This document shows, piece by piece, positions 30,952 through 49,266 of a stretch of 64,000 bases of DNA (positions are counted from its first letter, which is position 1; every line of letters begins with the position of its first letter). The notes under the pieces are model-generated. The model searched no databases. It saw only the letters and a list, made by a program, of their open reading frames with translations, and was not told the DNA's origin. The position numbers and the translations under genes are program-made. The stretch covers positions 1 through 64,000 of the forward strand of contig JAPOVS010000039.1 of assembly GCA_026708055.1 (NCBI GenBank), read 5' to 3'. The stretch is from a bacterium. Lineage in GTDB: Bacteria; Actinomycetota; Acidimicrobiia; Acidimicrobiales; CATQHL01.

Positions 30952-30996
30952 CACAGGTGTGAATAGACCTGTGGACAACACAGGTGCCAACAGGTG
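30952..30996. promoter_or_regulatory. CAGGTG motif cluster with a DnaA-box-like site
   Basis: The sdhC/whiB divergent region holds CACAGGTG at 30952-30959 and 30979-30986, AACAGGTG ending at 30996, and an inverted CCTGTG at 30968-30973. TGTGGACAA at 30970-30978 is the complement of TTGTCCACA, the preferred DnaA box of high-G+C actinobacteria. The spacing and repetition suggest regulator binding at a divergent promoter. Confidence 0.4.
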
Positions 30997-31072
30997 CTCG
31001 GACGGCTGTCGAAGGCAACCACGCCGGGGGTCCCCCTGGGTCCGAGACTCCAAGGATCGAGAGGATGTCCGG

Positions 31073-31351
31073 ATGTTCACCCAGGAGATGCGAGTCCAAG
31101 ATCCGTGGAAGCAGTACGCCAACTGCCTCGGGGTGGATCCCGATCTGTTCTTTCCCGAACGCGGGGCTTCCACCAAGGAGGCCAAGCGGGTCTGCGGTGC
31201 ATGCGTTGTGCGCACGGAGTGCCTCGAGTACGCCCTCGAGAACGGCGAGAAGTTCGGAATCTGGGGCGGCATGAGCGAGCGGGAGCGCCGTCGCGTGCGC
31301 CGCGAGCGGGCCCTGGCACGGCGGCAGGCGAGCGAGTCCGCCACGGCCTGA
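31073..31351 (+). CDS. WhiB-family Fe-S regulator (WhiB2-like)
   Basis: The ATG at 31073 gives 92 residues and follows GAGAGGA. The four cluster-binding Cys are in YANCLGVDPDLFFPE and RVCGACVVRTECLEYAL, followed by the turn GIWGGMSERERRRVRR and a basic tail. Closest in pattern to WhiB2/WhmD, which helps control septation in other actinobacteria. WhiB proteins bind a 4Fe-4S cluster and sigma factor region 4. It stands alone between sdhC (divergent) and tatA. Confidence 0.92.
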   Translation: MFTQEMRVQDPWKQYANCLGVDPDLFFPERGASTKEAKRVCGACVVRTECLEYALENGEKFGIWGGMSERERRRVRRERALARRQASESATA

Positions 31352-31691: not shown

Positions 31692-31804
31692 CCCCGCCGG
31701 CACGGGTGAGCCCGGCCGCGCAAACTGGCGCGGCACTCGCCGCCGGAGACCAGGGTGACCCCGTTCCGGCGTCCGCGGCCTCTCGGATCGCCGCAGTCAA
31801 GCGG

Positions 31805-31810
31805 TACAGT
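31805..31810 (+). promoter_or_regulatory. Leaderless -10 box TACAGT
   Basis: TACAGT ends 7 nt before the ATG at 31818 and decides between that start and an upstream ATG at 31755. Confidence 0.55.
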
Positions 31811-31817
31811 CTTGCCA

Positions 31818-32132
31818 ATGGCATCTGCGAGGTTGTGCTCCGACGGCCGAGTGACGATCCCCAAGGACCTCCGCGACGCCTGCGGGCTCCGTGTCGGCAC
31901 CGAGTTCGACGCCGAACTGACCGACGACGGAATCCTGCTCCGCCCGCGGCCTGAGCGGGACCCCGATCAGTGGTGGTTCTGGACCGAGGAGTGGCAGGCC
32001 AAAGAGCGCGAGGCCGAGGCGGACATCGCCGCGGGCAGGCACGGGCCGGTGTTCTCGTCGGGGGAGGAGTTCCTGACGGCGCTGCGCGAGATCGCCGGTT
32101 TGGGGCCTGGCGGCGACAGCACGGCGGACTGA
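31818..32132 (+). CDS. AbrB/MazE-type antitoxin, toxin missing
   Basis: The 104-residue protein has an AbrB-like swapped-hairpin DNA-binding domain (SDGRVTIPKDLRDACGLRVGTEF) and a C-terminal segment WFWTEEWQAKEREAEADIAAGRHGPVFSSGEEFL of the kind that binds a toxin. A toxin gene would be expected just downstream, but 30 nt after the stop the sequence turns into the decayed FnIII/SGNH gene. The partner was probably lost when that DNA arrived. Confidence 0.82.
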   Translation: MASARLCSDGRVTIPKDLRDACGLRVGTEFDAELTDDGILLRPRPERDPDQWWFWTEEWQAKEREAEADIAAGRHGPVFSSGEEFLTALREIAGLGPGGDSTAD

Positions 32133-32160
32133 GGCCACCGGAGCGCCCCGCTTTGCGCCG

Positions 32161-33112
32161 TGCCCACACATTGAGGCCACCACCTACAGTGTCGGAGCGA
32201 CAGGCGATTTCACGCTGCGAGTCCGCGGGATGCGCGCAATGTCGGAACCGAAAAATGTCGGACTTAGCCTTCGTACCGATGCGTATGGCCACCCAAGTTC
32301 GGAATTCGCTATCGCTTGGGACGCCCCAGACCACACCGGCGGTTCTCCCATCACAAACTACCAGGTGACAATCTCAAGCCCCGCGACACGGAGGGGCCTG
32401 AATCTGGGCTTGGACAATAGCCGACCCGAAAGGGTGGCCTTCAACACAACGGATAGAGACGCAACCTACGTCTCAGCCTACATGGTGTACGAAGGAAACT
32501 TCTACAGGACGTACACGGTAGCTGTACGTGCCGAGAACAGCACCGGTCTGGGCCCTCCATCGACTGCCGTGCAGATAGAGACGCCGTGTCCGCTCACTTG
32601 GTGGGCTGCTGGAGATTCTTTCTCGTCTGGCACCGGCGCAGGGAATCAGGAGGGGGATTGCAGAGGATCGTTGGTAGACGTGTATGTGCGCGGTGTCGAG
32701 AACCACCTGAGTGATCGAGGGAGGTTATATGTCATCGGATATCCGAGTATTGTTGCACCTACAGTGGAGTGGAGTTGCTGCAAAAGGGTTGGGGTTGGGG
32801 CCCGAACCTAGGTCATGGCTGCTGGGGTATTCATAGGATCTATGCCTCAACTCTTATCAGAGCTGCAACTTATCTTACACAGGTCTTGGTGCTGCAGTTC
32901 AAGAAGTAAACAGACTACTTGGAGAAAGTCGCGTTCGTTTTGTCGATGTACAAGCTGTATTTCGGGAAGGTGGGCATGAGCTTTGCGGAAGTGGTGACGA
33001 TTGGCTGCATGGAATTAAGGGTACTGACAACGCTGCCTATCATCCCAATCAGCTGGGACACGCGGCAATTGCGCAGGCTCTAGTGGATCAGATTAGTTCT
33101 GACTGGTCCTAA
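32161..33112 (+). pseudogene. Decayed secreted FnIII-SGNH hydrolase
   Basis: The piece opens mid-protein with IEATTYSVGATGDFTLRV, a repeat unit seen in secreted actinobacterial proteins. A fibronectin type III domain follows (WDAPDHTGGSPITNYQV), then the SGNH block I WAAGDSFSSGTGAGN with the catalytic Ser. The frame breaks at a stop (32809-32811), another stop lies at 32834, and a third frame then reads the hydrolase end: EVNRLLGESRVRFVD, LCGSGDDWLHGI and AAYHPNQLGHAAIAQAL with the catalytic His. The middle of the catalytic domain is missing. G+C is visibly lower than in the neighbours. No signal peptide remains. Confidence 0.82.
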
Positions 33113-33126
33113 CCCTTGGATAGTCC

Positions 33127-33252
33127 TCCATCAACGCCTGGATCGACAACTGGAACCAGAACCCCCGCCCCTTCGTGTGGCGCAAGACCGCAGACGAGTT
33201 CGTCGAGACCATGGCCACATGTCTGCAACGAATTCCCCACTCAGGGCACTAG
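33127..33252 (+). mobile_element. IS630-type transposase tail (remnant)
   Basis: Forty-one codons read SINAWIDNWNQNPRPF followed by VWRKTADEFVETMATCLQR, the characteristic end of IS630-family transposases. The rest of the transposase and the terminal repeats are absent. It directly follows the decayed SGNH gene and marks an old insertion at the island's left border. Confidence 0.75.
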
Positions 33253-34244
33253 ACGTGCGGGCCGCGGTCCTCGATGCCGCGGCGCACGTCGCGGCCGGCG
33301 ATGACGCCGCTGAGGTGGGCGCGGCGGGCCTCGGCGGCGGCGAGGTCGGGGTCCGCTCCGAGCGCCTCCTGCAGTTCGTTGGCCAGCAGGGCGGTCAGTG
33401 TGGTGGCCATGGTGGTGTATGTCTCGGCGAGGCTGTCGGCGATGGCGCCGTCGGCGGCCACGTCCGCGGTGTATCTGCCGCGCAGTCGCCACTGCGACAG
33501 GGTGGCCGCATCGACGCCGAGTCCGTCGAGTACGCCGGCGGGGGAGCGGTGCGCCGCGTCCGGGAGGAGGTCGAGGCAGGCGGCGATGTTGTGGCCCGCG
33601 CGGCGGAGTTCTTTCTCGCTCGGCGTGGGCGTGCCGTGGAGGACTGCGAGCGCCTTGATCGCGGTCTCGGCGGTGATCGCCGCGGTCGTGCAGATGCGGA
33701 CCATGCGCTCTAGGCGGGCCCGTTCGGCGACCTCCGGGGGGAGGGGCGCGTCGGCCTCTTGTGTCCCGCGGTGGGTGGCGGCCTCGAGTTCGCTGAGCCG
33801 CGGCAGGACCCAGTGGTCGAACTGGCGGAGGGCCTCGTGTGCGTCGCTCATGGGCAGAACCATCTCCTTGTTCCAGTTGACGGGGGCCCGTTCGGCGGCC
33901 GTGGCCACCGCCACGGCGGTGTCGTGGATGCGCCGTTCCAGGGAGGTCGGCACGTTGTCGATGCGGGCGCGCCATTCGGGCCGGTCGGTCACGTGTACCT
34001 GCACCGGCCACGGCGCGGCGGCGGCCCCCGCGGCCGCCTCGAGGGCTTGGCGGCGGGCCGCGCGCTGGGAGTAGTCGAGGTCGGCGTAGATCGCCACCAA
34101 GTCGATATCGCTGGACAGCGTCGCCATCCCGTCGGCGACCGAGCCGAACAGGAGGACCTCCTCGGCACCGATCTCCAGGAGCGCCGCGGCGGCTCGGCCG
34201 GCTGCTGCGAGCGTCGGCGCGGCGGGGGCGGCGATGGTCGTCAC
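33249..34244 (-). CDS. MNT-HEPN fusion protein
   Basis: The GTG at 34244 is chosen because TAGGCT lies 7 nt before it (leaderless). The 331-residue protein starts with a minimal nucleotidyltransferase domain: LLFGSVADGMATLSSDIDLVAI, with the GS and the D-x-D pair. The second half is helical and contains MVRICTTAAITAETAIKALAVL and RRAGHNIAACLDLLPD, resembling HEPN domains, though the R-x4-6-H ribonuclease motif is not clear. In separate form HEPN toxins are AMPylated and silenced by MNT antitoxins; here both are in one chain. A small lone MNT gene follows upstream at 34359. Confidence 0.72.
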   Translation of the reverse strand: MTTIAAPAAPTLAAAGRAAAALLEIGAEEVLLFGSVADGMATLSSDIDLVAIYADLDYSQRAARRQALEAAAGAAAAPWPVQVHVTDRPEWRARIDNVPTSLERRIHDTAVAVATAAERAPVNWNKEMVLPMSDAHEALRQFDHWVLPRLSELEAATHRGTQEADAPLPPEVAERARLERMVRICTTAAITAETAIKALAVLHGTPTPSEKELRRAGHNIAACLDLLPDAAHRSPAGVLDGLGVDAATLSQWRLRGRYTADVAADGAIADSLAETYTTMATTLTALLANELQEALGADPDLAAAEARRAHLSGVIAGRDVRRGIEDRGPHV

Positions 34245-34251
34245 GGCGATC

Positions 34252-34257
34252 AGCCTA
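34252..34257 (-). promoter_or_regulatory. Leaderless -10 box TAGGCT (minus strand)
   Basis: On the minus strand TAGGCT ends 7 nt before the GTG at 34244 of the MNT-HEPN gene. Confidence 0.5.
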
Positions 34258-34358
34258 CGCGCCGCGCCGTTGCGGCGGCGCCCGGGCGGGGGTATCACCA
34301 GCGGTCGCCTTCCGGATGTGCCGGACCCGGTCCTCGTCCGGCACTCGCCTGCGGGGGT

Positions 34359-34661
34359 TCAAAGGATGATCGCCTCGAGGAGCATCGCCCGATGCCCCTC
34401 GTACTCGTCGGGCTTGAGGCCGCCAGCAGAGACGACGTCCACATCGACGCCCAGCAGCTCCGCGAGGGCGCCTTGGAGGCGCGCCAGGTCGAACAGGGAC
34501 GACCCCGTCTCGAACCTGGCCAGGAAGTCCACGTCGCTGGCGGGGCCGTCATCGCCGCGGGCCGCCGAGCCCACCAACGCGATGGAGGTGGCCTTGTTGG
34601 CGGCCGCCGCGGTCTTGATGGCAGCGCGGTGGGTGCCCAGGACGAGTTCACGCCGAGTCAT
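34359..34661 (-). CDS. Minimal nucleotidyltransferase (MntA-like antitoxin)
   Basis: The 100-residue protein is a single MNT domain with the motif ALVGSAARGDDGPASDVDFLARF, including the GS and the D-x-D metal ligands, and VDVVSAGGL as the third strand. MNT antitoxins modify HEPN toxins with AMP. No separate HEPN gene follows; the nearest HEPN candidate is the domain inside the fusion at 33249-34244. GGGAGC precedes the ATG. Confidence 0.8.
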   Translation of the reverse strand: MTRRELVLGTHRAAIKTAAAANKATSIALVGSAARGDDGPASDVDFLARFETGSSLFDLARLQGALAELLGVDVDVVSAGGLKPDEYEGHRAMLLEAIIL

Positions 34662-34681
34662 GCTCCCGGAGTCCCCGGCGA

Positions 34682-35110
34682 GTGCGACGCCGCGACGCGC
34701 ATGCCCGCAACTACAGCTTCCTGCTGACCGGCAACGAGGCGAGGCTCAGCCCGCTGTACGACCTGCACTCGTCGTTGCCGTACGTGGCCCGAGGCGTCGG
34801 TGAGCGGGAGATGGCCATGCGCTACGGGTCCACCTTCACCGTCTACAGCGCCGGCTCGGACCACGCCCTGCTCGATGTCGCTGCCCGTCTCGGGTTGCCG
34901 GAGCGCCGATTGTTGGATCGCGCCGAGGATCTGGTGTCGGGGGCCTCAACCGCGCTCGAAGAGGAGGTCACTGCCTTGTCCCCCGAGTTGCAGGATCTTC
35001 CGGAAATCGAGCGGTTGCTGCGCAGGCTTGGGCGGCGCGTGGTTGGAGTCGAGCGGACGATCGAAGCGAATCGCCGCCGCCTCCGGGAGCCTCACCGGCG
35101 GCCTCGCTGA
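34682..35110 (+). pseudogene. HipA kinase C-terminal fragment
   Basis: The frame begins abruptly with RRRDAHARNYSFLL, the catalytic HipA segment normally written N-x-DAHxKN, then RLSPLYDLHSSLPY and REMAMRYGSTF from the C-terminal lobe. The N-terminal 250-300 residues with the ATP-binding loop are absent and the Asn before Asp is lost. The remaining ~140 codons are open but cannot give a kinase. Other hipA pieces lie at 49263-49826 and 50785-50873. Confidence 0.8.
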
Positions 35111-35564: not shown

Positions 35565-36047
35565 GTGATCGTTCGGATGGATACTCGACGCGGTAGTCGG
35601 CCGTCCCGTCAGCTGGGGCGAGGCACGAGGCAACCATCCCGTGCGCAGTCGGGAGGCACGTCGAGGCGGACGGATCGGAAGAGTGTTGTGGGCCGTAGCA
35701 CGCCTCCGCGCTCCGGGACTCGCCGCGACCTGACCGGTGGCGGCAAACGAAGGATTCCCCCAATCTCAGCTTTGCCGGTCCTGTTGGCGTTGGGGAGTTC
35801 GGCATTGCTCATTGCGTCGATCGTTCTGATGGTCACAGCAACCGACTCGCTCTCAACCCTCAGGCTGTCGTACGTGCTGGGCCTTGCCGGCTTCGCCGCT
35901 GCCGCGGTGGCCGACACCGTGCACAAGCGAAAATGTGATCGAGAGATGCGAAACGATCGATTTACCGCGGCAACGATGCTGTGGTTCGGTTCTTTGGTCG
36001 TCACTGTCATCAGCGCGTATCTTGCAGCTGGCGAGGCTGCACTCTGA
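35565..36047 (+). CDS. Three-helix membrane protein (operon gene 1)
   Basis: The 160-residue protein has an Arg/Ser-rich, probably disordered N terminus of ~65 residues and then three hydrophobic segments: ALPVLLALGSSALLIASIV, LSYVLGLAGFAAAAVA and MLWFGSLVVTVISAYLA. A charged loop (HKRKCDREMRNDRF) joins the second and third. GAGGAG precedes the GTG at 35565 closely; an ATG at 35577 is an alternative. No family was recognised. Its position at the head of the VWA-tubulin-STAND genes suggests a small membrane component of that system. Confidence 0.7.
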   Translation: MIVRMDTRRGSRPSRQLGRGTRQPSRAQSGGTSRRTDRKSVVGRSTPPRSGTRRDLTGGGKRRIPPISALPVLLALGSSALLIASIVLMVTATDSLSTLRLSYVLGLAGFAAAAVADTVHKRKCDREMRNDRFTAATMLWFGSLVVTVISAYLAAGEAAL

Positions 36048-36063: not shown

Positions 36064-39000
36064 GTGATCTTCTTGTGCTCTGCACGACGACCGGCTTTCA
36101 GCTTCGACGGCACGAGATCGCCGTCGAAGCTCAGATCGCGCGGCGGTCGTGCGGCTGTTTCGGTCCGGGGAGTGTCCGCGAGTTCGGCTATTGGACGAGC
36201 GGGTGCCGCGCTGTCGCTCATCGCCACGGCGTCTGTGCTGGGCGCGGTGCTCTTCGTAGTTCTTGCATTGCCCGTCAAAGCCGAGGAGTCTGCCCAGCGG
36301 TGCGATGGACGCGAGTCGATCCGCGTGCTTTTCCTTCTGGACACGTCGCGGAGTCTGCGCGTGAATGACCCCGACGGCCGGCGGGAGACAGGCACGGTGG
36401 ATGCGCTCGACGATCTGGGCCAGATCGTCGAAGACTACCGTCTGCGATTGCGGCGCCACTACCCACACTGGTCGGTCTTTGCGGCGGTTGACACGTTCTC
36501 TGGACTCCACGACGAACCCGAGTTGAACAATCCATACAACCGCCTAAGCGGCAGCTGGCAGGATCTGGGAGATCTAGGCGGTCTTCAAGCCCTGCGTCAA
36601 GCTGCGGGTCGCGCGCTCGAGCAGCCCGGATACTGGACTGACTACCGGGAGGCGATCCGCGGTGTGCTCGACCGCTTCGCTGAACCGTTGCCGAATGGGA
36701 TCCCTTCGTGTGACTATCTATTCTGGTTCACTGACGGCGATCACGACACAATTTCAGCAGGCGTTTCTACGCCGGCAGAGCAGGCACAGATCGATGATAT
36801 GTGCCGTGTCGGAGGCTTGGTCGATCAGCTGCGACGCACGGGCGTCAATGTCACCGCTATCGAACTCCGCGTGCAGCGGGACTCGTCGGCGCAACTCCGC
36901 CGCTTGGTGGTCGGCGGCCCCGACTGTGTAGGACTTGACGGGGAGGTCGCCGATGTCGCGTCCGTGGCGGATCTTGCGACCGGAATCGAGGAGACCGTAT
37001 TCCGCTTGGTCGATCCCGATTTCCCGCGCGAGTTCCTGGATCCATGCGAGTCGAATCCGGCGGAATGCGAATACCGCTTCACTCTCTCCGACGGCGTCGA
37101 GTGGGTGAAGGTCTACGTGGACCTTCGAGGAGTCAGGGACCGCTCCGACGTGTCGATTGCCCTCCACGGACCTGACGGGACTCCGATTGCTCCGTTCGCA
37201 TTCGGAGATGACTGGACCCGGATTTCAACGTCAGGAATGTTGGGCAGGCAACCGACCCGGAACATCAGTGTCGCCTGGGCGCATCGGGTCGCACGGCAGG
37301 TCTACGGCATGGAATGGGGAGATGATCAGGTCTGGACGCTCGTCTTCTCCGGCGCGGAGGCTGCGAACGCGCGCGCCGGAATCCGCAAGGACGAGCGCGG
37401 TGCCCCGACCCTCGAGGAGTTGCAGTTCAGCGGCAGCGACTTGAGGGGGAGAATCAATCCGGCGCCCAGTGAGGATGAGATGGCGCGGCTCGTCCTGCAT
37501 CTCGATGACGGGCGCAACGTCGAGGTCAGTGGGTTGGATGGCAGGATCAGGTCCGGCGGCCGGTTCACGATTCCTGGCATTGTCGATCGCGTGGCCCGCG
37601 CCGCGCGGGGCGACGATTACCTGCCGACACGGGGCTGCGTTGGGACAGCCGAGCTGTCGGTCAACAAGGTGGTCGACTACGGGAGCTTCAGCGGTCCTTG
37701 GACTGCGCCGCTGCGGGCATCGGTGGTCGAGGTCCCCGTTCCGAGAGCACTGTGTGGATTGTCCGGCCGAATGGTGCCGACGCTCAGGGCGATCGCCGCA
37801 GACCCGGCGGACCGGTTCGACCCGGCGGGAACACTGGCGATCACGGCGGACGGTGGATTCCTTGACGGGTTGCTGACCGTGACCGATGTGCACATCGAGT
37901 CTGTCTCGGGGTCATCATCCGTGGACTTCTCGCCCGAGTGGTCGAGCGGGTGGCGATGCGACGTTCCGGCCGATGCCGTCGACTACTCCTGCGGCGATGC
38001 CTTTCGGCTCACTGTGAATGCCGACTCCGACTCCGAGGTCGACATCAGGTTGTCCCTGTCTTCCATCAGCGCCGATCCGATGCAGGAGCCGCCGGTTGTG
38101 GAGAGGACCACATACATCATCCGGGACGTCCTGGTGGACGGCAAATTGCCGGGTCCGGTGATCGCCGCGGTAGACGAGAGCCGACCGGGCGGATTTCTGG
38201 ATGTCTCCGCTGACGGCGGTACCGCGGACGGAGTATTGGTGTTGGACGGGCTGATCGCGGAGTCCGTGAACGGTTCCGCCGAGGCGGCACCGCCGATCCT
38301 GAGTGTCGGGGACTGGCGGTGCGTGATCCCGGCTGGAGCGAGAGCGCAGACCTGCCCGCCGTTGCAGGTTCTCTCGGGTCTCGCTGCGGGAGACGTCGCC
38401 GTCGACGTGGTTCTGTCGATTCGAGGCCTTGTCGACGATCCGAATCATCCACAAGTCGCTCAAGACATGAGGGTGGTAGTTCGTGACATCATTGTGCCTT
38501 CGGCGCTGCCGGCCGTCTCCGATGTCGTGGTTGAAGATCGGTTCGATCCGTCGGGCTCGCTGCGAGTCATCACTCAGGGAGGGGTGTTCGCCGGCTCGGT
38601 GACCGTTGAGACCGCATCGGACGGCCTGCTGCCCGTCGAGTCCGTGGACGGCGTTACGCCGCGACTGCGGCCCGGCGCGGAGTGGCGCTGCGAGGTGCCG
38701 GCAGGTGCAGTGGACCATGTGTGCCCTACCATGGTGATCGAGGCGACCGCTGAAGGCGACGCGACGATGGATCTGATCGTGCCGTTGCGTGCAGCGGGCG
38801 GCGATCCGGCGACGGTTCCAGGATTGACTAGTTATGTGCGGGTCGAGGACATCTCGATCGGCGTGAGGGAGACGGGCGAAGTCCTCGAGCACTTCATGCG
38901 CTACCTACTGATAGCCGTGGCTGTGTTCTTGGCGGTCCGGGTGCTGTCGGCGGGGGTGCGGCGCCGCTGGACGAAGTTGTCCAACAATATGTACTTCGTC

Positions 39001-39618
39001 GCCGACGGCCGGGTCGAGGGCGATGTGATCGTGCCGGGTGCCCTGCAGGATCATCGCTGCCGCGAGCTTCGGCGATCTGTAGCGAAGGCGGAATTGAGCA
39101 AAGCCGATGTCGCGCTGCGAGTACCGTGGTGGCCCCTGCTCGCCGGCTGGCCGTTGCGGATCGTGGCGACGGCAAAGGGGCGAGGGCGCAGCATCGCTGC
39201 GAGCGGTCAGGTCGACACGGACGTGACCAGGTTCGCAATCCGGTCCGAGCCTGACTCCAGGACGGTCGGTCAAGCGCTGAACGGCGGATGGGTCATCGTC
39301 GAACGCGATCACAACCACTATCAGCTGGTGTTGTGGGACGGACCCCGGGATGAGAAGGAACTGCTGGCGACCGTGGAGAGGATCTGGCGCGAGTTCGAGC
39401 GGCGGCCGCGGAACCGGGAGCCGTCCGACCCGAGCCGGCAGAGTCTAGCCCAGAGCGAGCCGCAGGCACCGCCCACGGGGGCCTTAAGGGACAGTCCAAA
39501 TGGCTGCCCGGACGAGCAGGACGAGCAGGACGAGCAGGGTCCGCCCGCGTCTCCGGGCCTGTCCCGCCGAAGGCAGCGACCACCGAAGGAGCCTGAGGCC
39601 CGGACGGGGCGCGCCTGA
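36064..39618 (+). CDS. Membrane-anchored VWA protein with three Cys-paired repeats (operon gene 2)
   Basis: From the GTG at 36064 the protein has 1184 residues; a GTG at 36172 is also possible. Order: basic N terminus, membrane segment or signal (about 50-70), a von Willebrand factor A domain with MIDAS residues DTSRS (93-97) and FTDGDHD (222-228), a beta-rich region, three tandem ~120-residue repeats (37780-38860) each with WRC...C and a DRFDP/GGF start, a second membrane helix (945-963) and a ~220-residue cytoplasmic tail ending in a low-complexity DEQ run. The VWA and repeats should face outside. Ligand binding through the metal site is inferred. It starts 17 nt after gene 1. Confidence 0.82.
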   Translation: MIFLCSARRPAFSFDGTRSPSKLRSRGGRAAVSVRGVSASSAIGRAGAALSLIATASVLGAVLFVVLALPVKAEESAQRCDGRESIRVLFLLDTSRSLRVNDPDGRRETGTVDALDDLGQIVEDYRLRLRRHYPHWSVFAAVDTFSGLHDEPELNNPYNRLSGSWQDLGDLGGLQALRQAAGRALEQPGYWTDYREAIRGVLDRFAEPLPNGIPSCDYLFWFTDGDHDTISAGVSTPAEQAQIDDMCRVGGLVDQLRRTGVNVTAIELRVQRDSSAQLRRLVVGGPDCVGLDGEVADVASVADLATGIEETVFRLVDPDFPREFLDPCESNPAECEYRFTLSDGVEWVKVYVDLRGVRDRSDVSIALHGPDGTPIAPFAFGDDWTRISTSGMLGRQPTRNISVAWAHRVARQVYGMEWGDDQVWTLVFSGAEAANARAGIRKDERGAPTLEELQFSGSDLRGRINPAPSEDEMARLVLHLDDGRNVEVSGLDGRIRSGGRFTIPGIVDRVARAARGDDYLPTRGCVGTAELSVNKVVDYGSFSGPWTAPLRASVVEVPVPRALCGLSGRMVPTLRAIAADPADRFDPAGTLAITADGGFLDGLLTVTDVHIESVSGSSSVDFSPEWSSGWRCDVPADAVDYSCGDAFRLTVNADSDSEVDIRLSLSSISADPMQEPPVVERTTYIIRDVLVDGKLPGPVIAAVDESRPGGFLDVSADGGTADGVLVLDGLIAESVNGSAEAAPPILSVGDWRCVIPAGARAQTCPPLQVLSGLAAGDVAVDVVLSIRGLVDDPNHPQVAQDMRVVVRDIIVPSALPAVSDVVVEDRFDPSGSLRVITQGGVFAGSVTVETASDGLLPVESVDGVTPRLRPGAEWRCEVPAGAVDHVCPTMVIEATAEGDATMDLIVPLRAAGGDPATVPGLTSYVRVEDISIGVRETGEVLEHFMRYLLIAVAVFLAVRVLSAGVRRRWTKLSNNMYFVADGRVEGDVIVPGALQDHRCRELRRSVAKAELSKADVALRVPWWPLLAGWPLRIVATAKGRGRSIAASGQVDTDVTRFAIRSEPDSRTVGQALNGGWVIVERDHNHYQLVLWDGPRDEKELLATVERIWREFERRPRNREPSDPSRQSLAQSEPQAPPTGALRDSPNGCPDEQDEQDEQGPPASPGLSRRRQRPPKEPEARTGRA

Positions 39619-39650
39619 ACCTCAAACCCAACGGACAAGGAGAGATGCAC

Positions 39651-42600
39651 ATGTTGAGTCCAGTAATCATGATCGGCTGCGGTGGGTCTGGCTCCAAGGC
39701 GATTCGCTATGTGAGATACGCCGTCAAGCGGAAGCTTCACACAGCAGGCTGGCCAGACGATATTCCCGCTGCGTGGTCGTTCATTGGAGTCGACGCCCTG
39801 AGCAAGCAAGAGGGTGGGGATGCCGACGAGATTCCGGACCTGCCCAAGGATGATTTTGTACAGATCACCAAGGGGCTCAGCGACTACTCGATGCTGAACG
39901 AAGCGCTCCTGACCATGTATCCGACGAATGATCCCTCGTATCAACATCTCATCGGTTGGCGTCCCGATCCGGATCAGGTGCAAATCGCCGTTGAGATGGG
40001 CTGCGGCCAGATCCGCACCATCGGGCGAGCCGTCGGTCTGTATACACTTCAACGCAGCCTAGGTAAGAGGATAAGCGATGCCTTTGATCGTGCTCAGGCT
40101 GGCTCGGGACTCAAGGAGGTTTCGGCCACGCTGGGGAAGACCCGATCAACCCAATCAAGTGGAGATCAGACGGATAAACCGCCGCTTGTCGTGGTCTGTG
40201 CGTCACTTGGGGGAGGGACCGGGGCTGGGATCGCTCTCGATGTCATTGATATGTTGCGACGGACAAGTGATTATGGTAAGGACACAATTCTCGTTCTATT
40301 CAGTATCGACATCTTCGGCAGGTCCGCGAGAGATATGGCGGGAAACTCGCTTGCCATGCTGTCCGAAGTCCTTGCCTCGTATTGGAAGATGCCGAGTGAG
40401 CCCGGAGCAGGAGACGTCTTTGGACAGCTGGAGGGCAGGCCGGGTCATGGGCCAAAGGCGATCTTCGTAGTCGGCTCGCAGAGCATGCAGGGCGCGACAA
40501 TTGGCAGTTCGAAGCGTGACGCGGACAACCTGGCTGTGACGGCTTATCGGTCTGTCGGAGAGGTGCTGTCCACTTGGGTCGTCGATGAGAGTGTTCAAGA
40601 GTTAGCTTCGCATTATTTGGCGACGAATTGGGCAAATCAGCAACGCAAAACGCCGGGCGGTTATGGCTTCGGTGCCAAGGAGCAGCAACCCGGCATGGTG
40701 TCGTCCTTCGGGGCGGCGACTATCACCCTCGGTCGCGAGTATTTCAGTGCTTGGGCAGCTGATCTTCTGGCGCGCCAGACGATCGGTGAACTCGTTGAAG
40801 GTCACCTTAGGAGCGATCAGTCTGGCACGGGTGGTGACGAGCGTACTGACTCCGAAAGAATCCTGCACCTAGCCGAACGGAACTTGTGGAGGCTGTTCGA
40901 TGCCAAGGATCGAACGAATCGCGAGCACCGCGCTGATTCGCCTGTGGATGTTCCGAGCCTATACGACGAGATTATCAGCCACGCCGATGCATCCGCTGTC
41001 GAGAGCAAATTCCGGGAACCGCTCAGCTATAGCGACGAGCTACCAGGCCGAGAGTGGCAGAGCAATATTCATCAAGAGTTGAATCGTATCTGGGAGTGGG
41101 TTGGAGAGCAGGGCTCTCGGTCGATCGACTACGATAAGTTGAATAGCGTCGCAAAGTCTTTCCCCCAAGCGGTGTGTCAAGCCGTCACCGAGATCATCGC
41201 GGATACCTCGATTCCTGTGGCCATCGAAGTGCTAAAGCAGGCGAAAGCGCAGGCAGCGTCGTATGTTGAAGAGCGACTGTCAGCCACAGTGCGAAACTAT
41301 GATGAGTGTGAGAAGCGTTACGACGATGTCCGAAGTCGACTCAATACGAGACGCAAACTGAAGTACACACATGACGACTGTGCGGTGTGTGTGGATGCCG
41401 CAGTGAGCTATCTGGAAGCCCTTTGGGACGAGAGACGGCACTGGGAGATCAAAGGCGTGATTGATTCAGCGTGCAATAATGTCTACGAGGAGATCATTCG
41501 CGGCCTATCAAGGGATTTGCGGGTGCTCGCGGAGAACATGCGTAAGGAACCGGTCAAGAGTTGGCCGAATGATGCAAGCGATCGGCCGGTATCCTACTTG
41601 CCCGGGCCCCTAGAATTTGCGCTCGAAGATCCGGAATGCTGGCCCGGGATGCTTGAATCTATCTGCAAAAGACTCGACGGCTATAGGCCGGGTCGAGATC
41701 CGCTGGACATGGCGCGGCGCGTGCTCATCCGAGGCTGCGAGGATGGAGAGATCGATCTTCCTGCTGGACTTAGACACAGTTCAGGCGATAGGGGATGGTT
41801 TCCATCAGACGGATCGCTCATCACAATTACGTCCGAATTGGTCGGCGATAGGATTGTGAATCGCACTAGGACTCTCATGAACTTGCGAGCATTTCGAGGG
41901 GTGATTGACGAAGGGTTGAGACAGTACCTTGGGGATCCCCAGAAAGGGGACCATACGAATCGGCTGAAGAGATTCGAGACATGCTTGGGGGATGCGCTTA
42001 GCCTGTCGCTTCCGCTGGTGCAGCTTGACAAGGATCTCTGTCAGAAGTTATACAACGATAAGGCAGGTCCGGAGGCGGTCAATCGCGTGTGCTCGGCCTT
42101 CCCATTTGATGCCGGGCATCCAGCCTTTGATATTGCTAAGACCGCTCTGGGGGATCACTATCGGCGGGTGAGCGCTGGCGATCCGCCATCAGTGATGATT
42201 TCATCGGTTATGGAGTATCCGGTTCATCCGATCGCCGTCAGCTCGCTCATGCACCCCATCGCCGAAGCCGTGCAGCGCTGCAAAACAGCCGACAGCCTGC
42301 AGGCTGACTTCTGGAACTGGCGCCGGGGTAGGACACTCCCTTCATTTATCCCTGTACCGGCCGAGGTGCGGCGCGCACTGATATGCGGTTTCGCGATAGG
42401 GAGGATGTGCGGCTATGTCACGGCTGACACCAAGAAGGCGGTGAAGATCAGCGGGACCCCGAAAGCTCTCGGTTCGAGCGAGACTGTGACCTTTCCGTGG
42501 CCGTTGTTGTCTGAGGTAAGGGATCCCCGTTGCCTGCTGCCAGCGCTTCTGGAGTCGTTTGTTCTATGCATTGCCAAGGCAGCCGCTGATCATGAAGCGG

Positions 42601-42992
42601 CCTTCGAGCCGTATGCGCGGCTGTATGATCTCGGCAAGGACCTTGAAGATGCCCAGAACTCCGAACTGCATTCCCTTATCAGGAACGGCGACGTACCGAG
42701 GGCACAGGTTGATGAGCCGAAGGTGCGAGGCCATGACGAATGTGAAAGGATGACGGCAGCCGAGAATTATCTCAAGCCCCAGATCGAATTTCTCAAGCAG
42801 CTTGAAGTCGAGCCCTTCAAGGGCGATGAGTGGTGCACCAGCAAGGGTATAGGGAGTGAAGCTGCATTTCAGAGCGAAGGCGCGTCAAGTCTGGTGCCTG
42901 TACGCGAGCTGCTGCCAGAAATGAGGGAATGCTTCGAACACATCCTTAGTTCGCTAAGGAAGGACAGAAGGGCGGAAGGCTATGACATCTGA
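39651..42992 (+). CDS. Large tubulin/FtsZ-superfamily protein (operon gene 3)
   Basis: The ATG at 39651 is preferred over 39645 because AAGGAG then lies 7 nt upstream; the product has 1113 residues. The N terminus MLSPVIMIGCGGSGSK has the first nucleotide-binding loop, and residues 186-193 read LGGGTGAG, the tubulin/FtsZ signature that contacts GTP phosphates. SFIGVDALSK and FVVGSQSMQ fit the Rossmann-like core. The remaining ~800 residues are mostly helical and unrecognised, three times the size of FtsZ. It resembles the poorly studied tubulin-like families of bacteria rather than FtsZ or TubZ. Whether it polymerises is unknown. No signal or membrane helix is seen. Confidence 0.85.
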   Translation: MLSPVIMIGCGGSGSKAIRYVRYAVKRKLHTAGWPDDIPAAWSFIGVDALSKQEGGDADEIPDLPKDDFVQITKGLSDYSMLNEALLTMYPTNDPSYQHLIGWRPDPDQVQIAVEMGCGQIRTIGRAVGLYTLQRSLGKRISDAFDRAQAGSGLKEVSATLGKTRSTQSSGDQTDKPPLVVVCASLGGGTGAGIALDVIDMLRRTSDYGKDTILVLFSIDIFGRSARDMAGNSLAMLSEVLASYWKMPSEPGAGDVFGQLEGRPGHGPKAIFVVGSQSMQGATIGSSKRDADNLAVTAYRSVGEVLSTWVVDESVQELASHYLATNWANQQRKTPGGYGFGAKEQQPGMVSSFGAATITLGREYFSAWAADLLARQTIGELVEGHLRSDQSGTGGDERTDSERILHLAERNLWRLFDAKDRTNREHRADSPVDVPSLYDEIISHADASAVESKFREPLSYSDELPGREWQSNIHQELNRIWEWVGEQGSRSIDYDKLNSVAKSFPQAVCQAVTEIIADTSIPVAIEVLKQAKAQAASYVEERLSATVRNYDECEKRYDDVRSRLNTRRKLKYTHDDCAVCVDAAVSYLEALWDERRHWEIKGVIDSACNNVYEEIIRGLSRDLRVLAENMRKEPVKSWPNDASDRPVSYLPGPLEFALEDPECWPGMLESICKRLDGYRPGRDPLDMARRVLIRGCEDGEIDLPAGLRHSSGDRGWFPSDGSLITITSELVGDRIVNRTRTLMNLRAFRGVIDEGLRQYLGDPQKGDHTNRLKRFETCLGDALSLSLPLVQLDKDLCQKLYNDKAGPEAVNRVCSAFPFDAGHPAFDIAKTALGDHYRRVSAGDPPSVMISSVMEYPVHPIAVSSLMHPIAEAVQRCKTADSLQADFWNWRRGRTLPSFIPVPAEVRRALICGFAIGRMCGYVTADTKKAVKISGTPKALGSSETVTFPWPLLSEVRDPRCLLPALLESFVLCIAKAAADHEAAFEPYARLYDLGKDLEDAQNSELHSLIRNGDVPRAQVDEPKVRGHDECERMTAAENYLKPQIEFLKQLEVEPFKGDEWCTSKGIGSEAAFQSEGASSLVPVRELLPEMRECFEHILSSLRKDRRAEGYDI

Positions 42993-45756
42993 GCAAGCCA
43001 TGTTGACGATCTGCGCTAGCGCTGCGGTCGAGCGTGTGGATCAGCTGCTCGCGTCATGGACGAGATCGCATCTGGTGAAGAACGTAGCCGTGTCTTCTCC
43101 TAGAGAGATGGCAAAAAGTGGTCCTAAGGCCGCCTGCACGTACTACGACTCAGGGGATGAGAACGCGATTAGTGAGATGCAGCTGACCGAGGTCTTGGGC
43201 CGCCAGCCTGCGGGCACCAGAGTCACCTTGGCGGTGTTTCGAGATGGAGCAGACGACCACGGCGATGCAGATGAACGTTGGAGGGAGAGCATTGAATTGG
43301 AGAAGTCGGCAAGACGTTGCCTCGAAGACGTCTTGGAGCGGAGGGTTGTCCGTAAGAGCATCACGGTTGGTGTATATGACTATCCGTGCCCCGTGGAAGC
43401 GTTTTCCGCCGATTGGGATCAACACTTGGTGCACGACAGGGTAGTTCTTCAGCTGCCTATGAGAGTCTTGAAACTTGGCACCGGTGACCTTTCGGGCCTC
43501 TGTGCGATGATGGCATTGTCTGCTGGTGGTAGCTGGGCCTTCAGTGATGGTGCGGTATTGAACTCGACATATGATGACCAAAAACAGCGGGCGAGACAGT
43601 GGGGTGCGGTGCGCATCGTTCGACCGGAGATTCGTATTGTGACCGTCGGATCGTTGGACGCAGAGATCGCAGAGGTGACGGATCGAAATTTCGTCGAAAA
43701 ACCTCCATGGCCTCTCCCATGCGATGAACCGGTCCGTTCATCGAGCAATGATCCGTTCACCAGTGTGCCCAAGGAGATCGCGCTGCCCAAGACTAGCGTC
43801 TCGGAACTGGTGAGGACGTGTGGGTTTGATGTTGATGAAATCGTGGAGTACCGCGAGTGCAATCAGTTCAGGCTTGAGCTTCGTGACGCGTTGTTCAGCA
43901 TGAACGTGGCGACGCTTGTCCGGATGCATCTGAGGGAATGGATTGCGGTATCGCAGGAGGACATTAGCGAGGCTGAGGCGGTCGTTGACGCGATCGATCG
44001 TTTCGACCATCGAGTGACGAATCTAGAAGCTGCTGTCGCGGCGCTGCGCAAGGCCAACGTGGCGGACCTCGAGCTGGGAAGGGATGTCGCGCGCCGCGCT
44101 CGGGAGCCGTGGAAAAAGATGCGCGAGTTCTTTTTCAGCCTGGTCGACGGTGGCGACTTGCCGCCGGGTGTGTCGCCGCTGAACCCGCCTGTGGACGCGC
44201 GGCCCGACCAGATGCCCGTTTGGTCAGACCCGTCGGCCCTTGCGCCCGCTCCAGATCGACCGCTCGATCCCTTCGATCTCGTTGGACTTGACCGGGCAAT
44301 TGTGGATCGCCTGGGCGTCCGATGCATTCATCCGTTGGACGTACTGCATGCGCCCAGACTCGACTCCATCATCACACGCGAAGAGGATCCATTTCCGTAT
44401 CTGACTGACGGTCTGCGCCCCGACCTCAGGGGCAAAATCGCCCCCGAGATTCGCGATAGGTGGATAGAGTGGCGAGATACGTGGTGGTCCACTCCTCTGG
44501 GAGAGTTGTCGAATATGCTCGGCAGCGCGATCGAGCGCGCGTACGGCAACTTCGTAGAATCTGTAAAGGCAATTAAGCAGATCAAGACTGACCGCTATGT
44601 CGTTGAACAGTACTCGTTCAACCATCGGCCATTCACCGCTTGCTTGCTTACGTTCTTGAGTGCGGCGGGGCTCTTGGCGTGGCGACTGCTCGGCAATGGT
44701 GGACCGGTTCCAGAAAGCGGAAGCGGATTTGTTGGCACGGTCATACTCTGTGGAGTTCTGCTTCTACTGCTGCACATTTGCTACCGAAGAGAGCTTAAGC
44801 TGATCGATCAATCAGAACTCTCTTCGAGAGAATTTCTGGATGAAGTTCAGCGAGTGCAGCACCACGCGCTTGAGGTGGCACGCCTGCATGGACTTGGCCG
44901 AGCCTTCATGGACCACCAAAGAGTTGCACGCGTACTGCTTTACGAACCCTTTGGGATCGGGGGGATCGAAGCAGAGACTGTGACGTCATCTGAGGACGCC
45001 AGCAAGCGATTCGCGAATCTTGGACCGCCCTCTGTTCTCTGTGGCTCTTCGACGCTGAGCGATGAACAGAGAGAGGCGCTTGCGAGGCTTGACAGGGACG
45101 ATGTTTATCGAAGAGGCTGGCTCACTACGGCACATACGGAGATGACCGAGTCCTGGAAGCAGGCTTTCTCCACACTCATCGGATCGGAGCATTTTGCGAT
45201 GCCTGATGACGACTATCTACCCCCGGACGAGGTCCCCTATCAGGATTCGACAGAGCAAAGGTTGCCAGGCCCGCGCCAGCACTTTCGCGAATCAATTGAG
45301 CGAGATGCGGGACTGCGGACGAACGGACGTCTCCAGATCGTTAAGGATTTGGCACAGCTGGCACGCGGTGCCGTGCAGCAAGTTGAGGAGTTGGGCTCGA
45401 TCAAGGTAGAGAGGTATCCTGAGTTGTCAGGATTGGCTAGTGACTTCGTTACATTCGCTGGCTCGGAACTTTCATCGGTTGAATTCGATCCCAGCATGCT
45501 TGAGTTCATGGAGCCCGTCTCTGTGGACGAGAGCTGTAGCATTGGTTCGGTCAGTGCGTTCCGGATCCAAGCCGATGGACTATCGCAGCCGGCCTTCGTT
45601 TCTTGGCGCATGCTGGTCTCGAAAGCATGTTTGGCTGCCGGGCTGCGGTGCGTCGCAGATGAGAACAAGCGACGAGAAGATGAGAATAGCCGACGATCGT
45701 TCGAGACGCAGACATCGCGACAACCGACGGAAGTTCTCCAAGTGCCCGAGATCTAG
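42982..45756 (+). CDS. Unrecognised 924-residue membrane protein (operon gene 4)
   Basis: No family was recognised. The gene overlaps the tubulin-like gene by 11 nt, so both are probably made together. The soluble N-terminal half (about 1-545) is mixed alpha/beta and contains DRVVLQLPMRVLKLGTGDLSG and helical segments around 300-390. Two membrane helices follow, PFTACLLTFLSAAGLLAWRLL (about 548-568) and VGTVILCGVLLLLLHICY (about 583-600), so both large soluble parts should lie on the same side, likely the cytoplasm. The C-terminal third is helical and ends in a charged tail. It may link the cytosolic tubulin-like and STAND proteins to the membrane. Confidence 0.75.
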   Translation: MTSEQAMLTICASAAVERVDQLLASWTRSHLVKNVAVSSPREMAKSGPKAACTYYDSGDENAISEMQLTEVLGRQPAGTRVTLAVFRDGADDHGDADERWRESIELEKSARRCLEDVLERRVVRKSITVGVYDYPCPVEAFSADWDQHLVHDRVVLQLPMRVLKLGTGDLSGLCAMMALSAGGSWAFSDGAVLNSTYDDQKQRARQWGAVRIVRPEIRIVTVGSLDAEIAEVTDRNFVEKPPWPLPCDEPVRSSSNDPFTSVPKEIALPKTSVSELVRTCGFDVDEIVEYRECNQFRLELRDALFSMNVATLVRMHLREWIAVSQEDISEAEAVVDAIDRFDHRVTNLEAAVAALRKANVADLELGRDVARRAREPWKKMREFFFSLVDGGDLPPGVSPLNPPVDARPDQMPVWSDPSALAPAPDRPLDPFDLVGLDRAIVDRLGVRCIHPLDVLHAPRLDSIITREEDPFPYLTDGLRPDLRGKIAPEIRDRWIEWRDTWWSTPLGELSNMLGSAIERAYGNFVESVKAIKQIKTDRYVVEQYSFNHRPFTACLLTFLSAAGLLAWRLLGNGGPVPESGSGFVGTVILCGVLLLLLHICYRRELKLIDQSELSSREFLDEVQRVQHHALEVARLHGLGRAFMDHQRVARVLLYEPFGIGGIEAETVTSSEDASKRFANLGPPSVLCGSSTLSDEQREALARLDRDDVYRRGWLTTAHTEMTESWKQAFSTLIGSEHFAMPDDDYLPPDEVPYQDSTEQRLPGPRQHFRESIERDAGLRTNGRLQIVKDLAQLARGAVQQVEELGSIKVERYPELSGLASDFVTFAGSELSSVEFDPSMLEFMEPVSVDESCSIGSVSAFRIQADGLSQPAFVSWRMLVSKACLAAGLRCVADENKRREDENSRRSFETQTSRQPTEVLQVPEI

Positions 45757-45987: not shown

Positions 45988-48900
45988 ATGAGCAAAATGT
46001 CGAACAAAGCGGAGAGGGGCTCGACACATGGCCTTTCGATGGGGTCACAGGACCTGGTCAGGGGAGGTGCGTGCAAGCCCTCTGGTGATGAGAAGAGAGA
46101 GTTGGTCGGTCGATCTCGAATTCTCTTGGTCGATGGCTTAGAAGCGATTTATGATGATGTCTTGAAGAGCAAATGCTGCTCGTGGGTGTCTCTAGAGGGC
46201 CCGTCGGGCTGGGGCAAGACGCGCGTTGTACACGAGTTATTCAAACGCCTGTCCAAGCGCCAAGAGCAGCCGCGGTACTGGCCTGATGTTATCGATGATC
46301 CCACCTTGGGCCGGAAAGCTGCACAGCCGCTATTCACGAGGACCGGTAATTCTTTGCCAGAGTTTTTGTGGTGGGGGATAGGATGCTCAACTAGCGTAGG
46401 ATTGGGGACGCAGGCTCTAGAGCGCGACGTTAAGCGGTTGTACGAGCATCGTACGTTTCTGAAGAAAGCTCGTCAAGGGCTGATTTCGCGTGGACAGTCG
46501 GTGCGAGAGACGTTCGCGCAGCGTACGCACAGCATTGGCCGAGCGGTGAAAGAGGAGGGTAGTATTGAGGCCATTTCTTACTTTGTCCAGGAGGCTGCAG
46601 GCGCGGTAATTCCTGGAAGCGGCTTGGTCTACAAGGCAGCACAACTGGGCGTCGCTGCCGGAAGGCGCAAATTGCAGCAGAGCAGGGAGGTTGCCTCTGA
46701 GACGACATTCGGTGAGGAGCGTTCTAAGGACCTCGTTGATGAAGTCGTCTACTTCCTCGGCAGCTTCACTGCGGTGGGCTTTCCTCTCGTCATATTTGTC
46801 GAAGACGCACACGCAGCCGATGACGGAGTTGTTGAACTGCTCGGCAAAGTGTTGAGCCGCGGGGGTACGGTGTTTGCCATTACGACCTCATGGCCGGACT
46901 TTGCGGCCAGGAACCCTGCCCTAGATGAACTCATGAGTGAATATGAGGGGCGCTTACACCGCGTGGGGCACACGAGCTCTGCCGGGGAACCGTTCCCCGA
47001 AGGATCAGGGCTATGCGAACTCGAATATGGTGCTCGGAGAACAATACTTCACCATCATTATGGACGAGTCGAGAAAGAGACAGAGAAATTTCTATTGGAA
47101 CGCTTTGTGAATCCCTTGGCTCTAAACTTGTTCTGCGAAGTAGGCAAGTATCGTAGGGACGAGGAGTATCGTACTCGTGATGGCGCACTGTGCCTTCCGC
47201 CCAAGGAACGAGATAGCGTTCCAACGAGTATTCGCGAACTCTACCGTGATCTCTGGAGGGAATTGTCTATCGAGACGCAATTTGCCTTGGCGGTCGCGTA
47301 TATTCTGACTCCAGCCAACATCGATTCGGCTGTCGCCAAGAATGAAGACGTATGGATGGACAGGTTGCTGATAGAAGTGATTGAGCGTTTCGAGAATCTT
47401 GAGGATCCGAATATTGGCGACGTCGTGGACGCACTCGCCAAAGCGCCGACCGCGAACGCGTGGGTCCGAATAGTCGATGATTATCTGCGTGCGTTCTCGG
47501 AGGAAGATCAAAAGGCTATTGTCAATGAGGATGGCGGCGGAGTGTTGAATGATCGGTTGGACGACCCGAGCGGACAGATACTCGCCAAATTGACGGATAT
47601 TTTGCTGAGTGCAGACAGCGACGTTAGGTGCACGATAAACGGTGCCCGGAGTATCTTGGCACTGCACGCGGTAGGAAATATCACTGATCACGGGATGGTT
47701 GCAGAAGCCATTTGTTTGCTGATGGAGGACCTCGAAAGTAACCTGCGAGAACTCCCCGAGCGCCTCCGCCTCTTTGAGATATTTGGAGATTTGGACCCTC
47801 GACCACTAAGCAGTATTACCACCTTCAAGCTCCGCCAGTGTGGAGCGTGGGCGCTCGCCGAGGCGGGGAAGACCGGCGAGGCCATCACAGTATGCGAAGA
47901 CTTGCTAAACGAGCAAGTTGGGGAGTTGGGCACCGAGCACCCTAGCACTCTCGATACCCGGCGGATCCTCGCAGGCAGGCTTGCTGAGGCGGGGCGACTC
48001 GAGGAGGCCATAACCGAACTTGAGAATGTGCTGACGGAGAGTGAACAGGTGTTGAAGCCCGGACATCCCGACACGCTGCGGATACGCCATAACTTGGCCG
48101 GTTGGGTCGGATCGGCAGGGCGCGTCGAAGAGGCGGTCGATCGGTTCAGGGCTGTGTTGGAGGATCGGTCGCGTGTCTTGGGCGCGGACGACCCGCAGAC
48201 GCTGCATACTCGTCACAACCTTGCGTACTGGCTAGGCAGGGCGGGAGGCATTGATGAGGCCGTTCGAGCGTACGAAGAACTGCTGGTGGATCGGTCGCGT
48301 GTCTTGGGTGTTGACCACCCCAGCACTCTGGACACTCGCAACAATCTGGCGCGTTGGGTTGGTGAGGCGGGGCGCGTCAAGGAGGCAATCGATGAGTTCG
48401 AGGCTGTGTTGGAGGGTCGGCGGTGGGTCTTGGGTGCTGACCACCCCCACACACTCGTAACCCGGGACTATCGGGCGCGTTGGTTGGGGGAGGCGGGGCG
48501 CGTGGAGGAGGCGATCGGGCAGTTCGAGGCTGTGTTGGAGGATCGGCGGCGGGTGTTGGGCGCGGATCACCCCCACACACTCGTAACCCGGGGCAAGTTG
48601 GCGCGTTGGTTGGGGGAGGCGGGGCGCGTGGAGGAGGCGATCGGGCAGTTCGAAGCTGTGTTGGAGGATCGGCGGCGGGTGTTGGGCGATGACCACCCCC
48701 ACACGCTGCTAACTCGCCACAATCTGGCGCACTGGGAAGGTAAAGCGGGGTTTGTCGAAAAGGCCGTTACCGCCCTTGAAAGGGTATGGGATGACCGGGT
48801 ACGTGTGCTGGGACCGAAGGATCCCGACACTCTGTTTACTCGTCATGTGCTGGGGGGCTGGCTCGGCGAGGCTGGGCACGTGGAGGAGGCCGTCAGAGCC

Positions 48901-49266
48901 AACAGAGAACTGTTGGACGATCGGTCGGCGGTTTTGGGGCGCGACAATCCCGACACATTGGATACCCACCATAACCTGGCGTACTGGCTTGGTGAGGCGG
49001 GGCGCGTCGATGAGGCGATCGATGAGTTCGCGGCACTGTTGGAGGATCGGCTGCGGGTATTGGGCACCCACCATCCCCACACGCTCGCAACCCGCTACAA
49101 CCTCGCGCGCTGGCTCGTTACGGCGGGACGTGCTGACGATATGGTTACAGCATATGCCGAGGTTATGGGAGATGAGTCGAGTGAGACGGCGCGCGACCAA
49201 CTTGACCGGCTGAGCACTTGCCAAGACCTGACGGGCTGGCTCGGTGAGGCGGGCCGCGCCGAGTGA
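45988..49266 (+). CDS. STAND-type P-loop ATPase with C-terminal TPRs (operon gene 5)
   Basis: The ATG at 45988 follows GGAAGGAAC. The 1092-residue protein has Walker A GPSGWGKT (71-78), Walker B LVIFVEDAHAAD (about 267-278) and a winged-helix-like region (about 400-480), the layout of STAND switch ATPases. From about residue 615 come eleven 42-residue TPRs with the consensus HPxTLxTRxNLAxWLGEAGRV, like kinesin-light-chain TPRs, plus a partial twelfth. STAND proteins hold an inactive ADP state and assemble when their sensor repeats bind a trigger. A 231-nt gap separates it from gene 4 and holds nothing recognised, so an own promoter is possible. No separate effector domain is seen. Confidence 0.85.
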   Translation: MSKMSNKAERGSTHGLSMGSQDLVRGGACKPSGDEKRELVGRSRILLVDGLEAIYDDVLKSKCCSWVSLEGPSGWGKTRVVHELFKRLSKRQEQPRYWPDVIDDPTLGRKAAQPLFTRTGNSLPEFLWWGIGCSTSVGLGTQALERDVKRLYEHRTFLKKARQGLISRGQSVRETFAQRTHSIGRAVKEEGSIEAISYFVQEAAGAVIPGSGLVYKAAQLGVAAGRRKLQQSREVASETTFGEERSKDLVDEVVYFLGSFTAVGFPLVIFVEDAHAADDGVVELLGKVLSRGGTVFAITTSWPDFAARNPALDELMSEYEGRLHRVGHTSSAGEPFPEGSGLCELEYGARRTILHHHYGRVEKETEKFLLERFVNPLALNLFCEVGKYRRDEEYRTRDGALCLPPKERDSVPTSIRELYRDLWRELSIETQFALAVAYILTPANIDSAVAKNEDVWMDRLLIEVIERFENLEDPNIGDVVDALAKAPTANAWVRIVDDYLRAFSEEDQKAIVNEDGGGVLNDRLDDPSGQILAKLTDILLSADSDVRCTINGARSILALHAVGNITDHGMVAEAICLLMEDLESNLRELPERLRLFEIFGDLDPRPLSSITTFKLRQCGAWALAEAGKTGEAITVCEDLLNEQVGELGTEHPSTLDTRRILAGRLAEAGRLEEAITELENVLTESEQVLKPGHPDTLRIRHNLAGWVGSAGRVEEAVDRFRAVLEDRSRVLGADDPQTLHTRHNLAYWLGRAGGIDEAVRAYEELLVDRSRVLGVDHPSTLDTRNNLARWVGEAGRVKEAIDEFEAVLEGRRWVLGADHPHTLVTRDYRARWLGEAGRVEEAIGQFEAVLEDRRRVLGADHPHTLVTRGKLARWLGEAGRVEEAIGQFEAVLEDRRRVLGDDHPHTLLTRHNLAHWEGKAGFVEKAVTALERVWDDRVRVLGPKDPDTLFTRHVLGGWLGEAGHVEEAVRANRELLDDRSAVLGRDNPDTLDTHHNLAYWLGEAGRVDEAIDEFAALLEDRLRVLGTHHPHTLATRYNLARWLVTAGRADDMVTAYAEVMGDESSETARDQLDRLSTCQDLTGWLGEAGRAE
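47833..49266 (+). repeat. 126-bp tandem repeats encoding TPRs
   Basis: The coding repeats have a 126-bp period. Units near 48475-48562 and 48601-48688 agree at all but one of 88 positions, far closer than the other units, which shows a recent duplication or gene conversion in the TPR array. Confidence 0.85.

Follow-up and report, generated by a model that had tools for sequence, protein, structure and literature searches.

The window, the whole 64,000-nucleotide stretch of actinobacterial DNA analysed here, carries on its forward strand a gene (36064..39618) for a VWA protein of 1184 residues. The open frame and hydropathy predict that this protein passes the membrane once. We read it as a single-pass transmembrane coupler, in which a metal-dependent external contact would be joined to a tubulin-family protein in the cytoplasm; our estimate for this reading is about 0.55. 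The pairing of the two genes has been known since 2010. The layout in which a single chain spans the membrane suggests how its outer part could be joined to the inside.

The gene cluster and the VWA head

Upstream of the VWA gene, positions 35565..36047 (+) encode a small membrane protein with three hydrophobic segments, as judged from the frame and hydropathy. The stop of this gene is separated by 16 bases from a GTG codon at 36064. The start of the VWA protein is uncertain; GTG 36064 gives an n-region of 48 residues and GTG 36172 is a possible alternative. Twenty-six bases after the VWA gene comes a gene (39645..42992, +) whose product, FtsZl1, matches Tubulin_2 (Pfam PF13809, 1e-31) and contains the loop GGGTGAG. 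A preliminary description, made from the letters of the DNA, had named a cytoskeletal GTPase as the neighbour; a tubulin-superfamily gene is indeed there. The following gene (42982..45756, +) overlaps that for FtsZl1 by 11 bases. It encodes a large protein with a predicted two-helix membrane hairpin at about residues 553–600 (hydropathy). With its short gaps and the overlap, the layout is as in one operon.

Its neighbours and domains place the window gene among the vWA/FtsZl1 operons predicted by Makarova and Koonin in 2010 (PMC2875224). As far as the part of that paper used here goes, the two have in common an FtsZl1 (Tubulin_2) gene, a MIDAS vWA gene and further membrane proteins. A protein kinase or P-loop GTPase is described in the same part as frequent, not universal, in such operons; neither was found among 15 window proteins scanned by profile.

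The same-strand gene after the cluster (45988-49266) encodes AAA_16 and many TPR repeats. Its score against the NCBIfam model FxSxx_TPR (301.7, cut-off 300) is probably TPR-driven. We considered this gene as a further component and rejected it, since it was not found beside the relatives examined. Toxin-antitoxin-type remnants occupy 31755-35110, upstream of the cluster: a MazE-like gene, two nucleotidyltransferase genes and a HipA C-terminal fragment. A fibronectin type III domain occurs in a short protein encoded at 32230-32811. The product of 30959-31351 resembles what we take to be a WhiB-type actinobacterial regulator.

The N-terminus of the VWA protein is signal-peptide-like. A hydrophobic segment at residues 49–67 (36208..36264, +; Kyte-Doolittle 2.51 over 19 residues) is followed by ALPVKA, and the chain may be cut after A73. 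The head comprises residues 80–325 (36301..37038, +), as defined by invariant columns, matches to VWA_2 in relatives and Foldseek. Two MIDAS motifs had been reported as intact. Both are present as described, DTSRS at residues 93–97 and TDGDHD at residues 223–228. Sixteen columns are invariant in all 19 aligned heads. These are the MIDAS residues D93, S95, S97, T192 and D224, cysteines 80, 216, 247 and 288, and seven others; from its position, we take T192 to be the MIDAS threonine. The head would be expected to bind metal.

The VWA protein itself matched no Pfam family at E ≤ 1, no NCBIfam or PADLOC family, and nothing in a sequence search of the PDB. VWA_2 is matched by 16 of the 19 aligned members. 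A profile hit helps to recognise the domain, but the structure of the domain does not depend on one. A full-length model from the two-row alignment had a mean pLDDT of 36.2, mostly below 50, and was used for the VWA region only. Foldseek gave 22 matches at E ≤ 0.001 for the model, among them Ku80, complement factor B, TgMIC2 and integrin I domains. We base the VWA assignment on the relatives, the invariant columns and these predicted fold matches. A membrane-anchored VWA is shared with bacterial vWA membrane proteins of the MoxR/BatA type; unlike in those systems, the neighbours scanned by profile here include no MoxR AAA+ ATPase.

Stalk and membrane topology

Between the head and the membrane lie a middle region (residues 326–560; 37039..37743, +), with 35% identity to its counterpart in G008, and three tandem repeats. 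Repeat 1 spans residues 573–692 (37780..38139, +), repeat 2 residues 693–812 (38140..38499, +) and repeat 3 residues 813–938 (38500..38877, +). The proposal of three repeats of about 120 residues held when they were aligned. Pairwise local scores were 150, 143 and 129, compared with best scores of 53, 64 and 68 from 1000 shuffles each; for every pair, 0 of 1000 shuffles reached the observed score. All three repeats contain WRC (at 630, 751 and 874), then a P-A motif, and all have the second cysteine that had been described. The spacing, given earlier as 7–10 residues, is instead a fixed C-x10-C (Cys 632/643, 753/764 and 876/887). A fourth or fifth copy in residues 325–572 was rejected; scores against repeats 1–3 lay within the shuffle range (even the best of them was reached by 32 of 500 shuffles).

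G008, from the same family, is the nearest relative, and it has three repeat copies with the same cysteine pair. Across the six copies from the two proteins, 11 columns are invariant, including both cysteines. An AlphaFold2 model of one repeat (repeat 3), built from the six repeat rows, is all-beta (mean pLDDT 86.8, pTM 0.77), with a predicted Ig-like beta-sandwich. Structural matches had modest scores. With VIA, a TRAP chain matched best, at Z 8.7, and HAP2 reached 8.6; the best Foldseek E was 5.8e-3. Between them, the searches found Ig-like domains of Fsx1, HAP2, TRAP subunits, FixG and PapD-like proteins, with further families possible outside the VIA rows listed. A PDB search with the repeat profile returned weak matches only. 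The matches to the predicted structure point to a common fold rather than to kinship within one family. The stalk had been described as built from disulfide-bonded domains. Stalk domains that are Ig-like and have paired cysteines are supported by the C-x10-C pattern together with the fold prediction.

Other VWA proteins had been suggested as a place to find the same repeat. This was true of G008 but not of two operons from the window's genus, G005 and G007, where the stalk is made of other repeats. In G005, stalk copies r3 and r4 align with a score of 218 (shuffle best 65), and the cysteine pairs are 24–29 apart. Stalks seem to have expanded separately.

A predicted membrane helix follows the repeats at about residues 947–965 (38902..38958, +; hydropathy). 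After this come RRRW and a tail of 219 residues, close to the 220 first described. Topology was judged from hydropathy, the charge step and cysteine parity, rather than with SignalP or TMHMM. The check that the VWA head lies outside had been set beforehand. The hydrophobic N-terminus, the charge step and the even number of cysteines all agree with that placement.

The same signs recur in relatives. Hydrophobic segments were found at the N-terminus in 19 of 20 frames and at the C-terminus in 19 of 20, with L043 and the truncated L044 as exceptions. In a set of 29 proteins, net charge was higher after the helix in 23, equal in five and lower in one. The ectodomain cysteine count was even in all 24 proteins having any (4 to 18 cysteines); five had none. 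A domain held together by disulfides in an oxidising environment would be expected to show even counts. For comparison, counts in 28 whole FtsZl1 frames were even in 17 and odd in 11. The 24 proteins are related and do not amount to 24 independent trials, yet their counts vary widely between groups and are still even. The set of 29 leaves out G284, G231, G010, G234, G258, G266, G414, G068 and G548, which lack an FtsZl1 neighbour, run into a contig end or are marginal. Ectodomain counts are also even in G284, G231, G010 and G234 (20, 8, 8 and 8). A topology with head and stalk outside and tail inside is supported by these sequence-derived signs.

Recurrence of the VWA-FtsZl1 pair

We searched 395 genomes of the class with a two-row VWA alignment. 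Matches were found in 22 genomes, the window's own included. Loci were examined in 20 of the other 21, leaving out G079, where only the stalk matched. FtsZl1 lies directly downstream in 14 of these 20. Two loci are cut by a contig end (G266, G284) and four have no adjoining FtsZl1 (G010, G258, G231, G234). Tubulin_2 was likewise found in 22 of the 395 genomes, again counting the window's own, and a MIDAS VWA gene is directly upstream on the same strand in 20 of the 22. The two exceptions are G414, cut by a contig end, and G068, a marginal match with no clear DxSxS head upstream. In a draw from the phylum, Tubulin_2 occurred in 10 of 296 genomes. Seven of eight newly examined loci from this draw have a VWA neighbour bearing a C-terminal helix and tail, G080 being counted both here and in the 20 of 22.

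Two loci were unusual in their FtsZl1 genes. G548 (L069 5515-9171), the eighth of the newly examined loci, has two short tandem FtsZl1-like genes (about 510–570 aa) and no VWA neighbour. In G364 (L059 2377-5650), FtsZl1 is split over two overlapping frames, by sequencing error or decay. A scan of genome contigs with the two-row alignment gave one locus only, a scan of viral contigs with FtsZl1 gave nothing, and a plasmid search gave two Rhodococcus records.

The other cluster genes recur as well. A small upstream gene with two or three hydrophobic segments is present at 19 of the 28 loci that extend far enough to show it, and a large downstream gene with at least two hydrophobic segments at 21 of 26. 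Wherever the small gene is present, the ectodomain is long (at least 558 residues in all 19 cases). The small gene is missing in all seven short forms (about 370–460) and in two long ones (G546, G663). Overall, the length of the outer part ranges between about 370 and 1090 residues, while head, helix and an inner tail are kept. Seven other genomes of the window's genus gave no match to the window VWA protein, and two (G005, G007) carry a diverged operon. The gene surroundings of the diverged operon in the same-genus loci L010 and L011 differ from those in the window. The genes beside it read like what are presumably suf iron-sulphur genes.

According to the part of the 2010 paper used here, some vWA proteins of such operons have signal peptides and/or membrane segments (PMC2875224). 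Unlike that account, the proteins described here share a nearly uniform plan of signal, head, variable stalk, one helix and inner tail. The words disulfide, immunoglobulin and FHA are absent from the main text of PMC2875224, Additional File 6 (localisation predictions) lying outside that check. In the literature searched, which held few subscription papers, we found no experimental study of the VWA-FtsZl1 pair and no account of the uniform plan.

The inner tail and the proposed coupling

Behind the helix, residues 966–1112 (38959..39399, +) form an inner tail domain. Near-group tails (window, G008, G188, G334, G281 and G342) share 19 invariant columns, which lie in this domain. The C-terminus (39400..39615, +) is rich in Pro, Glu and Arg and probably disordered, the last third of the tail being of low complexity. 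No match to the inner tail was found in Pfam, or in the PDB when searched with the tail profile. Identity to G008 is 46% in the head, 35% in the tail and 34% in the repeats; only the head stands out. Comparison of tail profiles between groups gave a probability of 61% for B-C and at most 0.4% for the other five of six. One tail fold common to all lineages is unsupported by this comparison. Judged by the alignments, an inner module of about 100–270 residues persists across lineages; its sequence does not.

An FHA profile did not match the tail of the window VWA protein. Three distant actinobacterial tails, G680, G574 and G689, gave E values of 0.056, 0.02 and 0.24 against FHA, weak matches that all fall short of the cut-off. 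These FHA-like tails belong to compact VWA proteins (L063 8203-8580, L064 6688-7065 and L065 3359-3736). A PDB search with the same tails found nothing significant; among the chance-level matches was a KIF1B chain, which we take to be its FHA domain. An FHA identity for the distant tails is suggestive only.

These features lead us to the following picture. A stalk, with three disulfide-bonded Ig-like domains among its parts, would keep the VWA head away from the membrane. The head would make a metal-dependent contact outside, with a cell-wall component, a neighbour cell or a partner subunit. The helix would cross the membrane, and the inner tail would engage the FtsZl1 GTPase, either directly or via the hairpin protein. 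GTP-dependent assembly inside could then be tied to a fixed external point. The picture would entail an external ligand, contact between tail and FtsZl1, filament formation and a direction of signalling, all of which we infer. The receptor-like plan first proposed is borne out in its layout of head, stalk, pass and tail, for which the topology signs speak; the receptor role would be a further step, and we use the label provisionally.

The plan bears on a point raised in 2010. The first reviewer of PMC2875224, in the part used here, argued that a vWA protein with a signal peptide could not be in the same complex as a cytoplasmic FtsZl1. For these lineages the objection no longer stands, given a chain that crosses the membrane once and ends in an inner tail.

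A bolder version of the coupler reading is tentative. As a functional counterpart of integrins, the system would combine a MIDAS receptor, an adjustable Ig-like stalk, a tubulin-family polymer and an inner module swapped between lineages, possibly an FHA-like phosphopeptide reader in some actinobacteria. The likeness to integrins is one of working only: a metal-dependent head of VWA/I type, a stalk, one helix per chain and a tail near the cytoskeleton. Unlike integrins, the window protein is a single chain with no alpha/beta pair shown, and its partner is of tubulin type, not actin type. Homology is limited to the VWA fold.

Of the other explanations, a static envelope scaffold is the most credible, though we would put it at about one chance in four. 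Here, the VWA protein would fix to the cell wall a machine for membrane remodelling or vesicles, and would sense nothing. The two further membrane proteins of the cluster fit such a machine, as does the membrane remodelling predicted for FtsZl1 operons in the part of PMC2875224 used here. However, the 19 aligned sequences all keep the full set of five MIDAS residues, which goes beyond the needs of a passive anchor. Less likely is a secretion or transport complex, with head and stalk guiding a substrate and FtsZl1 giving the energy or a gating step. Transport or signalling was proposed by a reviewer of the 2010 paper (PMC2875224), and vWA and Ig-like proteins are combined in a predicted archaeal secretion system (PMC5898192), as far as the parts of the two papers used here go. 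Yet no transporter or substrate gene was seen to recur in the clusters, and the hairpin protein here has only two hydrophobic segments, while some relatives have five to seven. An anti-phage or conflict system, brought to mind by the adjacent AAA_16/TPR gene and the HipA_C, NTP_transf_2 and MazE-type genes upstream, is very improbable, since PADLOC gave no convincing match for the five proteins (best E 0.008) and the TPR gene was not found beside the relatives.

We favour the transmembrane coupler. Since 2010, FtsZl1 proteins have been predicted to act as a cytoskeleton that remodels membranes, and the tail of the VWA protein is a candidate link to them. If the coupling is real, an external metal-dependent contact would be linked to a tubulin-family cytoskeleton in bacteria.
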